Below, piece after piece: positions 21,401 through 58,255 of a stretch of DNA of 64,000 nt. The position numbers and the translations under genes are program-made. The first letter of the stretch is position 1. Each line of letters begins with the position of its first letter. The stretch spans positions 34,131,366 through 34,195,365 of the forward strand of contig CAIIXF020000001.1 of the NCBI GenBank assembly GCA_903813345.2, in the 5' to 3' direction. Source of the stretch: Owenia fusiformis. Lineage: Eukaryota; Annelida; Polychaeta; Sabellida; Oweniidae. The notes below the pieces were generated by a model. The model was not told the DNA's origin. It ran no database searches and saw only the letters and a list, made by a program, of their open reading frames with translations.

Positions 21401-22246
21401 AAGGTGACCGTTATCGAATAGGTGATTATCTTCAATATTTTGAAAACCAAACACATGCACATCATAATATCGGTGTTTAAACCCAGGTTTTCAGGGTCAT
21501 CGAATAAGATAAAATTATGAAAATCAAGATTAGAACAATTATCTTATTGTTAATGCAAAAAGGGCAGCCATTATGGAGATAGTGACTACCTTCAATATTT
21601 CGTAGACATAGCATAGTAGCATTACAATATTTGTGCCTAAACCTAAGTTTTCAGGGTCAAAGAATAAGACACCTTAATAAAAACGATTAAAACAATATTG
21701 ATTGTGATTATGCAAATTAGAGCAGCCATTATAAAAATAGTAATTACCTTCACTATTTCGCAGACTTAGCATAGTAGAATCTCAATATTGGTGTATAAAC
21801 CTAGGTTTTCACGGTCAACGAATAAGATACTTTAATAAAAAAGATTAAAACAATATTGCTTGTGATTATGCAAATTAGGGCAGCCATTATAGAAATCAAT
21901 ATTTCGAAGACTTAGCATCACAATATTTGTGTCTAAACCTAGGTTTTCAGGGTCAAATAATAAAATACCTTAATAAAAAAGATCAAAACAATATTGATTG
22001 TGATTATGCAAATTAGGACTGCCATTATTGAAATAGTGATTACCTTCGATATTTCGCGGACAGTAGCATCGCAATATTGGTGTCTGAACCTAGGTTTCAA
22101 GGGTCCAAGAATAAGATACATTAATAAAAAAAAAAATTAAAATAGATTGATTGTAATTACGCAAATTAGGGTGGCCATTACTAAATTATTGATTGTCTTC
22201 AATATTTCGGAAAAAGCACACTAGAATCACGATACTGGAGTCTTAA
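21400..22246 (+). repeat. ~155-bp tandem array, left part
   Basis: About six diverged copies start at roughly 21400, 21555, 21712, 21867, 22009 and 22162. Shared blocks are CAAATTAGGGCAGCCATTAT, TACCTTCAATATTTCG, CCTAGGTTTTCAGGGTCA and AATAAGATA. The last copy is interrupted at 22246 by the palindromic element and resumes at 26485. Confidence 0.85.
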
Positions 22247-23725
22247 TAGTGGGCTGTATAGCAAGGTTGGTCGGGGTCGGGAGCTGGGGATAAATTTATT
22301 GCTTAAACATAACCATATCATCATTCTACATTAGAATCCACTCAGTCTAACATCAATTTCTGGTGCGAAAGTTGTCATTTTTGAATTTTACCCCCATTGA
22401 AGACAAATTCTTGGGGGTACTATGACAAATGCTTATAACTAAAGAAGTATTTATGTGATCATCTTCATTTTTGGCATGGGTAATTAACAGGTATGTAAAA
22501 GTGAAATTTGAAAAATTCATACAAATCGGGTTATTAATCCATCCTAAAGATAATAATTCAGGTATTTTCAAGGGTCAATTTCAACATTTTCTGGATGTCG
22601 ACATGAAGTAAAAATAACATTATGACCCAATGACATATTTATTGAATGTTTTTAGGCTTTAGGAAATAATTTGACTATATTAGCTAAAATAATAACATAA
22701 GAATTGTACCATATTGATAATTCTTCATCGCCATCCAGGCACAAATAAACCCCACCCCCTCCCCATTTTCGAATATAAAGGTCTATACCTGAAACTTCCT
22801 CAAATAGCTATATTTCAGAAACTATTACAGCCTATATTCCAAAATTTCTCATAGTGATTATTCACATCATACTCTGCATGATGGACATATAATTGAGATT
22901 TATCCATTCTATAGCTAATAATTAAGGTATTTTCAAGGTTCAATTTCAGCATTTTCGGAATGTCGCCATGAAGTAAAAATTACATGATCCAATGACATTT
23001 ATTAAATGTTTTTAGGCTTTAGAAAATAATTTGACTATATAAGCTAAGATAATAACATAAGAATTGTACGATATTGATAATTCTTCATCGCCATCCAGGG
23101 ATAAATAACCCCCCCCCCCCATTTGCGAAAATAAAGGTTTTTACCTGAAACTTTCTCAAATAGCTATATTTCAGAAACTATTACAGCCTCCATTCCAAAA
23201 TTTCTCTTGTTGACACTTTTGAGGGTGTAGCTAATAATAATAGTATATTTATTAGACATCTTAGAAATCAAAATATATGTTTTAGAAGGTTGTCACAACA
23301 CTACAAGAGAGATATTTTGGATTGTCATCATTTTTGAGAATATTACAAAAACATATTTATATTAAGCAATACTCACCTATTTTCATTTAACATAATTGAA
23401 GTATATTATCCAGCTAGTTTTAATGATTTCAGTATATGCATTTAATCCTGAGATGTACTTAGGTTTGATATCCATGAAGTAATCGTTTCTTTTTTGTTTG
23501 TAATTTAGTTTCTAAGCATAAAACTATAAGCATAAAATCTGTTTTGCTTTAGGATATACATTATCAATACCGTTGTCTAAACATTCAATTGACAACATTC
23601 AGTCAATATGCTTGACAACATTCAATAATGATTAATATGTTCGACCAATATGTTTTTGAATAACTTCACTAATACAATTTGCTTGAGTATTTACTTCAAC
23701 ATTTGCTTCAAACAGTTGAACATTG

Positions 23726-24355
23726 TTAGCTATCAACATTACCTGAAAAGATTTCATCTATGAAATTGTTGACTTCAGTATCTGTCATATCACCATCTGA
23801 TTCTTCAATATAAATGTCTACCAACTCTTGTGGAAGAATAGCATCTGGATTTTCAGCCCATTGTATATCAAGTTCGCCATCTTCTAGGAGCCATCCATTT
23901 TCCGTTGATAGAGGCTTGAGGTTGAAATCTGTTGGCAAAATTTATGTATCGTACATGATTGATGTCTGTTTTTTCTTTTCCCCATACATGATGCACACAA
24001 ATCTTTCGAGTTTTTGAAGATGCCTTTGGTCAAGAACTATAAATTTTCCAAGTTCTTGAAAGATTGCATACATGTCCTTCCTCTTGATCAGCTGTTTCAG
24101 AGGGTTTATTTTTCCCTTTCTCATGAAGGCACTGGTGGTATTACACCCTGTAAAACAGTGGATACCGATCAGGGTGGCTGTGATTGGATCACCCAAACCT
24201 GCTGCAACTGTCTTCAATTCAATGAGACGCCTCTTGTTTGAAACTCCAGTGTCAAACAGTACTTTGAGACGTAGGTGTTTGCTGTAAATAAGCAGGAGTA
24301 TGATAACATCTGTGTCTGGAGATCTGACAAGTATGGTCTTGGCCTCAGTCCCCAC
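23726..24355 (-). pseudogene. Left-arm copy of transposon-associated SPDTDV/CFTGC family protein (possible FEN1/PIN-like)
   Basis: The first frame (24355-23942) reads TILVRSPDTDVIILLLIYS, then GVSNKRRLIEL, then LIGIHCFTGCNTTSAF, KGKINPLKQL and LERFVCIMYGEKK. A second frame (23938-23726) gives NGWLLEDGELDIQWAENP, ILPQELVDIY and an acidic end. This family of large uncharacterised proteins is widespread in fish and invertebrate genomes, apparently repeat-associated. The D.D block followed by a G-C-(D/N) block and G-K resembles the metal-binding and helix-turn sites of FEN1/XPG nucleases; that is my inference. Relative to the right arm this copy lacks the segment with YDGIDISLLPPC. The 5' part is missing. 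Confidence 0.6.
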
Positions 24356-24605
24356 CTGCCTAAATCGGCATGTTCTGAATTTAAGAGAAGGCGTAGAGGT
24401 AAAATGCAGCCACTGCTAGTGAAAGGTCCCAAAACTATAGGAAGGACTTCCTTTCAAATAGCAAAATTCACCTTGTCCAACTTATCCATGGGTCACATGT
24501 TGTTAGTGAGGAAGTCCTAGACCTAAGGTGCAACCATGATGAAGCTGACACAAAATCATTCTCCATGCTTTATATGCATCAATAAAGGTCTGGGCTGAGG
24601 CCCAG

Positions 24606-25101
24606 ACCATACTTGTCAGATCTCCAGACACAGATGTTCTCATACTCCTGCTAATTTACAGCAAACACCTAGATTTGTGTGCATCATGTATGGGGAAAAG
24701 AAAAAAACAGACATCAATCATGTATGATACATCATGCACGATACATAAACAGATTTCAACCTCAAGCCTCTATCAACAACTATGATGGGATAGACATCAG
24801 TCTCCTTCCTCCATGCAGGTCATCCCTTGTTCAACATTGTAAAACATGTAACTACCAAGGTTACATATGGAAGCAGTCTCACAAAGCCCAAATGGATATA
24901 CACTCTCCAGCAGAAAATGGATGGATCATAGAAAATGGCGCACTTGATATACAATGGGCTGAAAATCCAAATGCCATTCTTCCACAAGAGTTGGTAGACA
25001 TTTATAACGAAGAATCAGATGACGAAATTGATGATGATATGACAGATAATGAAGTCAACAATTTCATAGATGAAATCTTTTCAGGTGATGTTGATAACTA
25101 A
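24606..25101 (+). pseudogene. Right-arm copy of the same SPDTDV-family gene, different deletion
   Basis: The plus strand reads RSPDTDVLILLLIYSKHL and then jumps to DLCASCMGK / CIMYGEK, so the whole CFTGC block is deleted. It then keeps the segment missing from the left arm: RFQPQASI, YDGIDISLLPPCRSS, CNYQGYIWKQSH, followed by NGWIIENGALDIQWAENP, ILPQELVDIY and an acidic tail, ending at 25101. The two arms thus hold complementary halves of one gene. Neither copy could make the full product. Confidence 0.6.
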
Positions 25102-26638
25102 CAATGTTCAACTGCTTGAAGCAAATGTTGAAGTGAATACTCAAGCAAATTGTATTATTGAAGTTATTCAAAAACATATTGGTCGAACATATTAATCATT
25201 ATTGAGTGTTGTCAAGCATATTGACTGGATGTTGTCAATTGAAATCATTAAAACTAGCTGGATAATATATTTCAATTATGTTAAATGAAAATAGGTGATT
25301 ATTGCATAATATAAATATGTTTTTGTAATATTCTCAAAAATGATGACAATCCAAAATATCTCTCATATAGTGTTGTGACAACCTTCTAAAACATATATTT
25401 TGATTTCTAAGATCTCTAATAAATATACTATAAGTATTAGCTACACCCCCCCAAAGAAAAAGTGTTAAGACTTCAATTATATGTATAATATGCAGAGTAC
25501 GATGTGTATAATTAACAAGAGAAATTTTGGAATGGAGGCTGTAATAGTTTCTGAAATATAGCTATTTGAGAAAGTTTCAGGTAAAAACCTTTATTTTTGC
25601 AAATGAGGGGGGGGGGTATTTATCCCTGAATGGCGATGAAGAATTATCAATATCGTACAATTCTTATGTTATTATCTTAGCTTATATAGTCAAATTATTT
25701 TCTAAAGCCTAAAAACATTTAATAAATATGTCATTGGGTCATGTAATTTTTACTTCATGGCGACATTCCGAAAATGCTGCAATTGAAGCTTGAAATAAAA
25801 TAATTATTAGCTATAGAATGGATAAATCTCAATTAAATGTCCATCATGCAGATTATGATGTGTATAATCAACAAGAGAAATAAATTTTGGAATGTAGGCT
25901 GTAATAGTTTCTGAAATTTAGCTATTTGAGGAAGTTTCAGGTATAGACCTTTATATTCGAAAATGGGGAGGGGGTGGGGTTTATTTGTGCCTGGATGGCG
26001 ATGAAGAATTATTAATATGGTACAATTATTATATTATTATTTCAGCTTATATAGTCAAATTTTTTTCTAAAGCCTAAAAACATTCAATAAATATGTCATT
26101 GGGTCAAATTGTTATTTTTACTTCATGTCGACATTCAGAAAATGTTGAAATTGACCCTTGAAAATACCTGAATTGTTATCTTTAGGATGGATTAATAACC
26201 CAATTTGTATGAATTTTTCACATTTTACTTTTACATACCTGTTAATTACCCATGCCAAAAATGAGGATGATCACATAAATACTTCTTTAGTTATAAGCAT
26301 TTGTCATAGTACCCCCAAGAATTTGTCTTCAGGGGGGGGGTAAAACTCAAAAATGAAAACTTTCGCACCAGAAATTGATGTTAGACTGAGTGGATTCTAA
26401 TGTAGAATGATAATATGGTTATATTTAAGCAATAAAATTATCCCCAGCTCCCGACCCCGATCAACCTTGCTATACAGCTCACTATAACCCAGGATTATAG
26501 GGTCAACTAATAAGATGAAATGATGAAAAATTATGAAAACAATGAAGATTGTAATTATGCAAATTAGGGCAGCCATCATCGAGTTATTGATTATCTGCAA
26601 TATTTTGTAGACTAAGCCAAGTAGCATCATAGTACTGG

Positions 26639-26890
26639 TTATAACATACCTATGATGATGTACAGTGCAAAGTGTACACAAGACGGCGGGCCAATATAAG
26701 TTTTGAAAAGCCCGCGCCCGCTAACTTTCTGATTGGTCAAGGCGCTGACGTCATAACCAATCAATCGAAGATAAAACTGCGCGAGCAATTTTTCTAAACT
26801 CATTTCAATCATTTTCAAACCATTTGTTTTTCAATTCTTTAAGAAAATGGTACTCTCTGACCAGTCTACATCATTATAGGTATGTTATAA
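26639..26890. mobile_element. 252-bp MITE
   Basis: A 24-bp inverted repeat with one mismatch bounds it (TTATAACATACCTATGATGA at 26639; complement ending 26890). It lies inside a tandem-array unit. TA dinucleotides at the edges suggest a Tc1/mariner-type target. Its interior includes a GC-rich patch (26683-26750). Confidence 0.7.
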
Positions 26891-26895
26891 ATCGT

Positions 26896-27008
26896 TTATG
26901 TCACTATCGTTGCACATATGCCCTCGGTTCTCAGAGATCAATGTCCCTCCCAAGGTCGGGCCATATATCACTGAGACCTCGGGCATATATGCCACGATAG
27001 TGACATAA
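26896..27008. mobile_element. 113-bp hairpin element
   Basis: Inverted arms of about 32 bp (TTATGTCACTATCGTTGCAC at 26896; complement ending 27008) surround a short loop with CCCTCCCAAGGTCGGGCC. It starts 5 bases after the neighbouring MITE, suggesting insertion hot-spotting or a composite. Confidence 0.65.
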
Positions 27009-27599
27009 CCTCTAATTATTAAGTTCTGGTTTTCTGGGTCAAAGAATAAGATAACATGATAAAAAATATCAAAACAATTATGATTGTGATAATTGATTAT
27101 CTTTAATATTTCGGAGACTAAGCAAAGTAGCGTTATAATGCTGGTGTCCAACCCCAGGTTTTCAGGGTCAACGAATAAGATGGAATTATAAAATAGATTA
27201 AAACAAAAGTGATTGTAATTATGCAAATGAGGGCTTTTATTCTTTATTTATACTTATGATTTATATTCAATGAACCTGATAAAACATTCCGAGACTTTTT
27301 AATTAAATATGCTAAATCTGCATATATGCGCAATATCTAATAAGTTATTGTATATTTTAACATTAAATTATTCATTGACTGCCAAAGTTTAAAAACATTG
27401 CTGGCAGTAAAAAACGATGCCCAACCTAAATTGCATATATCATTTTCCCCCAAAGCTATTTTCGGCAACCCAATAAATCACTAATGAAAACCCTCAATTG
27501 GTCCGTAATTTTAATTCTACTGCAAGCCCGATAAACAAAATATTTTGAATAAGAGCGATATTTCAACTAGAAAAAAGCAATTTCACAGAGAAGCAAATC

Positions 27600-56200: not shown

Positions 56201-56227
56201 TTGACGGACGGACGGACGGACGGACGC

Positions 56228-58255
<2,028 letters not shown>

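Follow-up and report, generated by a model that had tools for sequence, protein, structure and literature searches.

The window analysed here is a stretch of 64,000 nucleotides from the annelid Owenia fusiformis (C1:34131366-34195365), and the assembly that was searched comprises 498 Mb in 525 contigs. Positions 22247-26484 of the window are occupied by a palindromic DNA transposon of 4238 bp, made of two inverted arms with gaps, each of which carries an outward-reading piece of the same transposase gene. The element starts with TAGTGGGCTGTATAGC at 22247 and finishes with the inverted form TAGTGAGCTGTATAGC at its right end, and these two sites, both exact, were the sole matches to the end pattern in the window at up to 3 mismatches. 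With this tolerance, two or more matches were also reached in 10 of 100 shuffles, so the end pattern by itself is weak evidence. Identity between the arms was 88-93% in on-diagonal BLAST pieces, and 19 ungapped inverted blocks within the element (I1-I19) were 85-100% complementary. The flanks read through into array units of about 150 bp, so the boundaries of the insertion are well defined, and an empty site rebuilt by joining the flanks minus one TAA aligned to a neighbouring unit (75.8% over 244 columns). A sequence-only reading of this DNA had proposed a palindromic transposon that inserted with a TAA duplication into a tandem array and holds a doubled 360-bp unit in each arm; the inverted arms, matching ends, TAA on both sides, reconstructed empty site and repeat comparison bear this out. 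The same reading placed the CFTGC region without YDGID in the left arm and YDGID without CFTGC in the right arm, as we also found, with the left-arm piece on the minus strand and the right-arm piece on the plus strand. The features of the element and its site are given below, where axis coordinates are positions along the arm of the reference copy L012.

21401-22246, unstranded: host tandem array left of the insertion, unit of about 138-160 bp (repeat and flank comparison)
22244-22246, unstranded: left TAA of the 3-bp target duplication (BLAST and flank comparison)
22247-24382, plus strand: left ('short') arm, running from TAGTGGGCTGTATAGC to the centre and matching axis 1-2464 of the L012 arm, with gaps
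22247-23202 (inner edge approximate), plus strand: outer ~957 bp, probable ancestral terminal inverted repeat (TIR), left; present in non-palindromic siblings
22533-22896 / 22897-23213, plus strand: two tandem units of ~360 bp, left arm (repeat comparison)
23942-24415, minus strand: transposase C-terminal fragment of the left arm, with SPDTDV and CFTGC; open stretch of 157 amino acids reaching slightly past the centre
24384-26484, minus strand: right ('long') arm, in inverted orientation and matching axis 1-2618 of the L012 arm, with gaps
24488-25101, plus strand: transposase C-terminal fragment of the right arm, with HDEADT, SPDTDV and YDGID to the stop; open stretch 24673-25101
25473-25828 / 25829-26196, minus strand: two tandem units of ~360 bp, right arm (repeat comparison)
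25520-26484 (inner edge approximate), minus strand: outer ~957 bp, probable ancestral TIR, right; present in non-palindromic siblings
26485-26487, unstranded: right TAA of the 3-bp target duplication (BLAST and flank comparison)
26485-27229, unstranded: host array continuing right of the insertion, itself interrupted (repeat and flank comparison)

The genome was searched with the element terminus, as the sequence-only reading had suggested, and the window copy proved not to be unique, belonging to a family of 34 paired copies. The search returned 74 exact ends and 14 with one mismatch, and these 88 places are the listed ends used throughout. Ends with two mismatches were excluded; at up to 2 mismatches there were 137 + 122 matches against 69 + 76 in a reversed control, so many of them are chance matches. 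The listed ends formed 34 pairs, with 20 unpaired. We read 33 of the pairs, the window copy among them, leaving out an 18.7-kb pair on C12; eight of the 20 unpaired ends (L041-L048) were scanned as well and excluded from all counts. An exact 3-bp target duplication was present in 32 of the 33 copies (against 3.9 on average, and 11 of 33 at most, when the right flanks were shuffled), and the targets included, besides TAA, GAA, TTC, TAG, AGA, TGA, ATG, TTG, TTT, CAT, CTA and others. No 200-bp flank of any of these copies matched another locus (blastn, E 1e-8). Inverted BLAST matches spanned at least 70% of the length in 22 copies, and gene pieces lay on both strands in 19. Among 75 matches to the gene (about 70% identity or more, hand-picked from 143), 74 fell within 2.8 kb of a family end; the remaining one, at C6:22241318 and far from the listed ends, is a family fragment (L060).

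An arm of the palindromic type is built from an outer TIR of about 1 kb and, further inward, the 3' end of the transposase gene. Four siblings (L018, L022, L023, and L024) have the outer arms of the family around a non-coding core with tandem units. One sibling arm stops at axis 957 (in L018, L023, and L024), and the second ends near 1239 (in L018 and L022). The ancestral TIR would have been about 957 bp long; in palindromic copies, the 3' part of the element and the gene was probably added to it. The core of this sibling subfamily measures about 2.6 kb, its tandem units are rich in CTAGTAGCCCC, and it contains no open reading frame (ORF) longer than 120 amino acids. Three long ORFs of another copy, L034, were considered as the family transposase and rejected, as they resemble a nested long interspersed nuclear element (LINE). 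This LINE-like insertion (L034:2448-7242) has zinc knuckles and RVT_1 above the cut-off and an endonuclease just below it.

Next we compared the arms of 25 of the 33 copies, leaving out L013, L016, L018, L019, L022, L023, L024, and L031, which had no gene arms or an unclear orientation. Sites that differ consistently by side (side-fixed sites) numbered 0 of 2301 over these 25 copies. Because the score differences behind some of the orientations (L017, L026, and others) are small, the count was repeated on 18 copies with clear centres and gave 0 of 2225, at 75% or 60% agreement. The two arms must thus have started out alike or have become so later, which argues against the head-to-head joining of two diverged copies. 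For counts by subfamily, L026 was flipped, in keeping with the deletions that it shares, and 100% agreement required; for the 25-copy count, the deletions and subfamily A, it was unflipped with 75% agreement. Subfamily A (8 copies) had 18 side-fixed sites, all between axis 1142 and 2024, and thus 0 of 18 in the outer 1141 bp. Among 127 other labelings, 14 sites was the most reached, and those with the highest counts were flips of a single copy.

Centres were mapped in 19 copies, 18 of them informative (L020 was not). A single central junction common to all copies was rejected, as the detailed map gave four kinds. Type 1, found in 11 copies including that of the window, joins a piece from axis 2443-2464 to the long arm at about 2618, and in 10 of the 11 this piece is preceded by a short arm that extends to 2309. 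In Type 2 (5 copies), 2299 is joined to 2640 (2618 in L021); Type 3 (mapped in L038; its near-twin L039 has identical gaps) joins 2421 to 2142, and Type 4 (L030) reads 2356, about 20 bp, 2485. All of these types fit the trimming of a palindrome in which both arms would have reached at least 2464. L038 and L039 carry 16 of the 18 arm-specific alleles of the L012-type copies (subfamily A), yet have another centre. This sharing between Types 2 and 3 is nearly direct evidence for a change of centre inside an existing palindrome.

Judged from the genomic copies, palindromes have been shown to move through the genome as whole units: identity is 98.8% over 4.7 kb between L037 and L040 and 98.6% over 4.5 kb between L038 and L039, and the members of either pair lie at unrelated sites. 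A tree of the inner arms clustered them largely by side within subfamilies. Arms of the same element were more alike than arms of different elements in the outer 800 bp (0.969 versus 0.954, p 8e-7), at axis 801-1240 (0.956 versus 0.943, p 2e-4) and in the inner arm (0.946 versus 0.940, p 0.008), and in 20 of 21 copies the outer parts were more alike than the inner ones. Side-fixed sites within the outer 1141 bp numbered 5 of 47 in L038/L039, 1 of 9 in subfamily D and 0 of 2 in subfamily C. Together with the 0 of 18 in subfamily A, the count in L038/L039 suggests gene conversion of the outer arms in that lineage.

The window copy itself is a decayed member of the family, and of the deletions in its duplicated gene some are inherited and others private. 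The sequence-only reading had seen complementary deletion halves of one gene in its two arms. Comparison with the other copies takes the meaning out of this pattern: the YDGID loss is inherited and the CFTGC loss private, and the complementarity looks like chance because L010, L021, L035, and L036 have deletions that overlap between both arms (25 copies compared). L036 has an enlarged YDGID deletion with a start identical to that of the left-arm deletion in the window. At the breaks of the window copy, the overlap is 0-4 bp, and the scars are the following.

23904-23907, unstranded: left-arm YDGID deletion (axis 1723-1852), 4-bp overlap GTTG; also in L026
24487-24488, unstranded: right-arm deletion near the centre (axis 2405-2495); absent from all others among the 25 copies
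24671, unstranded: CFTGC deletion of the right arm (axis 1955-2220); absent from all others among the 25 copies
25240-25243, unstranded: right-arm deletion (axis 1236-1386), 4-bp overlap; also in L009, L026, and L036

Short-arm deletions of several subfamilies start at axis 1717-1725 (about 23907 in the window) and end at 1797, 1852, 1974 or 2004. The clustering of these starts within a range of 9 bp may reflect a deletion hotspot or successive enlargement. Coding constraint on the gene pieces of the family was rejected, since changes were spread equally across codon positions 1, 2 and 3 (293/316/322, p 0.47); the intact ORFs of two relatives from the same genome, L050 and L049, differ mostly at third positions (325/228/525).

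The longest open family copy (L020, 354 amino acids) is 36-42% identical to ORFs of 1010-1622 amino acids elsewhere in the genome. One relative, L051, is complete, with 6428 bp, TIRs of 521 bp starting with TAGTGG, a TAC target duplication and one ORF of 1526 amino acids. TAGTGG ends of this type formed six pairs (five about 6.4 kb apart and one 10.4 kb) besides two single ends. The family gene covers only residues ~1160-1526 of the full-length transposase. The N-terminal ~1150 residues were present in 0 of the 33 family copies, and of 56 genome matches to this part the nearest lay 439 kb from a listed family end, with 4 on contigs free of such ends. The N-terminal search scored 40 of 495 candidates and the gene search 115 of 646, so the absence of a helper is provisional. 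L049-L052 and their kin are diverse large single-ORF transposase-like proteins, many of them open over 1300-1622 amino acids. One large single-ORF transposase-like family has copies that are more than 99% identical, and was probably active recently.

We consider it probable that the family consists of non-autonomous cut-and-paste palindromes, whose TIRs were extended by template switching and which were then transposed as units. During repair of an excised or broken parent, the template would have been switched between the inverted ends, such that a copy of one half of the parent (TIR, 3' untranslated region and gene end) took the place of the other. The product would have been a near-perfect palindrome with two identical arms, having lost the N-terminal DDE part; palindromes have transposed as a whole since. 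Centres differ between lineages and the inner arms have diverged; the centres would have been trimmed after birth, and gene conversion between arms may have kept the outer arms alike in some lineages. Transposition must have been driven in trans, perhaps by a related element with TAGTGG ends and 3-bp duplications.

Several observations weigh against this reading. Outer arms are somewhat more alike than inner arms between elements too; part of their likeness may therefore reflect slower change, or exchange between copies. Nor was homogenisation general: of the side-fixed sites, the outer 1141 bp hold 33 of 74 in L037/L040, 7 of 19 in L010/L035 and 3 of 6 in subfamily E. Between subfamily A and Type 1, there were 19 sites at which both A arms agree against Type 1 and 15 that concern a single arm (8 + 7), and this comparison fits one origin with homogenisation and two origins from diverged parents alike. 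Finally, neither a parent nor a helper of the family turned up, provisionally, among the scored candidates, and template switching is something that we infer and did not see.

The strongest competitor is the recurrent and independent formation of palindromes from the same parental ends in several lineages, which we regard as possible and rather doubtful. It would account for the four centre structures and for the 19 sites just mentioned; however, the alleles shared by L038/L039 and the L012-type copies place at least one change of centre within an existing palindrome. It appears unlikely that two separate copies were joined head to head, or that one was inserted into the other, with deletion afterwards. 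The sequence-only reading had offered such a joining beside snap-back replication, and two gene copies reading outward from an asymmetric junction are what it would leave behind. However, no side-fixed site was found over either 25 or 18 copies, the mapped centres contain no terminal sequence, and one centre is common to 11 copies; hence, of the two proposed origins, the snap-back type, with both arms derived from one template, is the one upheld, and the joining of diverged copies is the one that 0 of 2301 and 0 of 2225 sites speak against. We give still less credit to an autonomous parent that was palindromic by design, with long TIRs and two divergent genes, and of which the present copies are decayed remains. 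Every gene-bearing copy read holds the C-terminal part only, and more than half of the copies (19/33) have gene pieces in two arms, as such a parent might leave; against it stand the gene pieces without coding constraint, the N-terminal part missing from all copies read and from the vicinity of the listed ends, and the related full-length L051 with its one gene and TIRs of 0.5 kb. Palindromes are prone to misassembly, but a false inverted duplication is hardly credible here, given arms that differ by several percent and family copies that occupy unrelated loci, each flanked by its own 3-bp duplication in 32 of 33 cases.

In the middle part of the transposase, D402, D633 and E879 (L049 numbering) were invariant alongside other residues in an alignment of seven relatives, which is what a putative DDE transposase would show. 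An AlphaFold2 model of L049 residues 1085-1526 (predicted local distance difference test 75.6, predicted template modelling (TM) score 0.76) matched XRN2 (E 6.7e-5), Rat1 (7.1e-4), and T4 RNase H (8.7e-4), with weaker matches above 0.001 to Rad2 (2.9e-3) and human XPG (1.3e-2). These structural matches are loose, as TM-scores by query were 0.3-0.4 and root-mean-square deviations about 10-22 Å. The modelled C-terminal part thus loosely resembles a PIN-like 5' nuclease of the XPG-like kind, XPG itself not being singled out, and its acidic motifs (DG, TDS, EEAD, DTD, and G-C/S-D) fit the active site of such a nuclease. Elements of the Academ superfamily make target duplications of 3-4 bp and have an XPG-type nuclease domain. 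The 3-bp duplications of our family fall within that range, and we take Academ as a lead for a possible superfamily placement. PIF/Harbinger elements, which TAA might suggest, have a TWA-specific 3-bp target, and this assignment was rejected on account of the many non-TWA 3-bp targets in the family. Pfam gave no match above the curated cut-off for L049 or L050, little on alignments of the relatives (at best DUF6589, E 2.5e-5, in 1 of 7), and was uninformative for the gene pieces of the window. A scan of viral contigs returned no relative, a tblastn search against phages returned 2 records (best E 0.3), and PDB sequence searches gave 0, 0 and 3 matches, the latter at chance level.

Foldback-type elements carry internal tandem repeats, and Tetris of D. 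virilis is reportedly a foldback-like element with long inverted repeats. Such inverted repeats are common to our family; in contrast, much of the arm here is one recruited gene end, and there are only two tandem units of ~360 bp. The nearest precedent for the mechanism is given by the long-TIR copies of Galileo, of the P superfamily. Galileo copy 147 of Drosophila willistoni measures 4306 bp, with TIRs of 1575 and 1608 bp that are 97.5% identical, and the TIRs of such copies have taken up over 500 bp of the transposase ORF in extending inward (PMC4168063). Its authors invoke abortive gap repair and template switching for defective copies, and call the recruitment of an ORF end into TIRs 'so far' unique to Galileo (PMC4168063). 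Compared with Galileo, the recruited segment is larger in our family, the arms meet so that the entire element is palindromic, and there are multiple copies with several centre forms. Galileo has 7-bp duplications and a P-type transposase; our family has 3-bp duplications, and P-element families were absent from the Pfam matches of the relatives, which speaks against membership.

A second comparison is Mu killer (Muk), described as an inverted derivative of maize MuDR that silences MuDR, with hairpin or antisense RNA being proposed (PMC3440606). Muk has TIRs from the same end, two partial transposase genes that end in an inverted duplication and an internal deletion (PMC3440606). A strikingly similar build, with an inverted duplication of the transposase gene plus same-end TIRs, is present here, where the arm identity beyond the ~957-bp TIR suggests that both TIRs come from one element end. 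The end next to mudrA is inverted in Muk and the end of the gene in our family, and Muk is a silencing locus, whereas this family is dispersed and mobile. No published description of the family was found in the open-access literature, searched by kinds of element.

Two further structures lie beside the element in the window. A 252-bp element-like segment at 26639-26890, with inverted ends of 29 nt (TTATAACATACCTATGATGATGTA...), also interrupts the array and is possibly a miniature inverted-repeat transposable element. It adjoins a small hairpin at 26896-27008, with arms of 33 nt and a loop of 47 nt. Farther away, at 56203-57330, is a GACA microsatellite of 282 units with 99% matches and several open frames.

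The palindrome most likely has no function for the host, and is a parasitic non-autonomous element mobilised in trans. Transcripts from its centre had been expected to form long hairpins, but one that starts there carries a single arm and therefore cannot fold back; a hairpin of the kind proposed for Muk could form only from RNA that crosses the centre, for instance by read-through from one end. By analogy, the family might have acted as a self-spreading Mu killer, in which palindromes mobilised by the parent spread inverted transposase copies through the genome and silenced it through their read-through RNA until it was lost. We hold this to be improbable; if true, the palindromes would be all that remains of the family. 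Long palindromes with near-perfect arms generally count as unstable in a genome, and yet palindromes of nearly 5 kb have transposed repeatedly here. The copies form a natural series with variously trimmed centres, arms that diverge inward, outer likeness in some lineages and very recent pairs, so that the birth of a palindrome, the trimming of its centre and conversion from arm to arm can be tested within one genome. If they are transcribed across the centre, these palindromes would also offer a test of whether a mobile inverted copy silences its parent.

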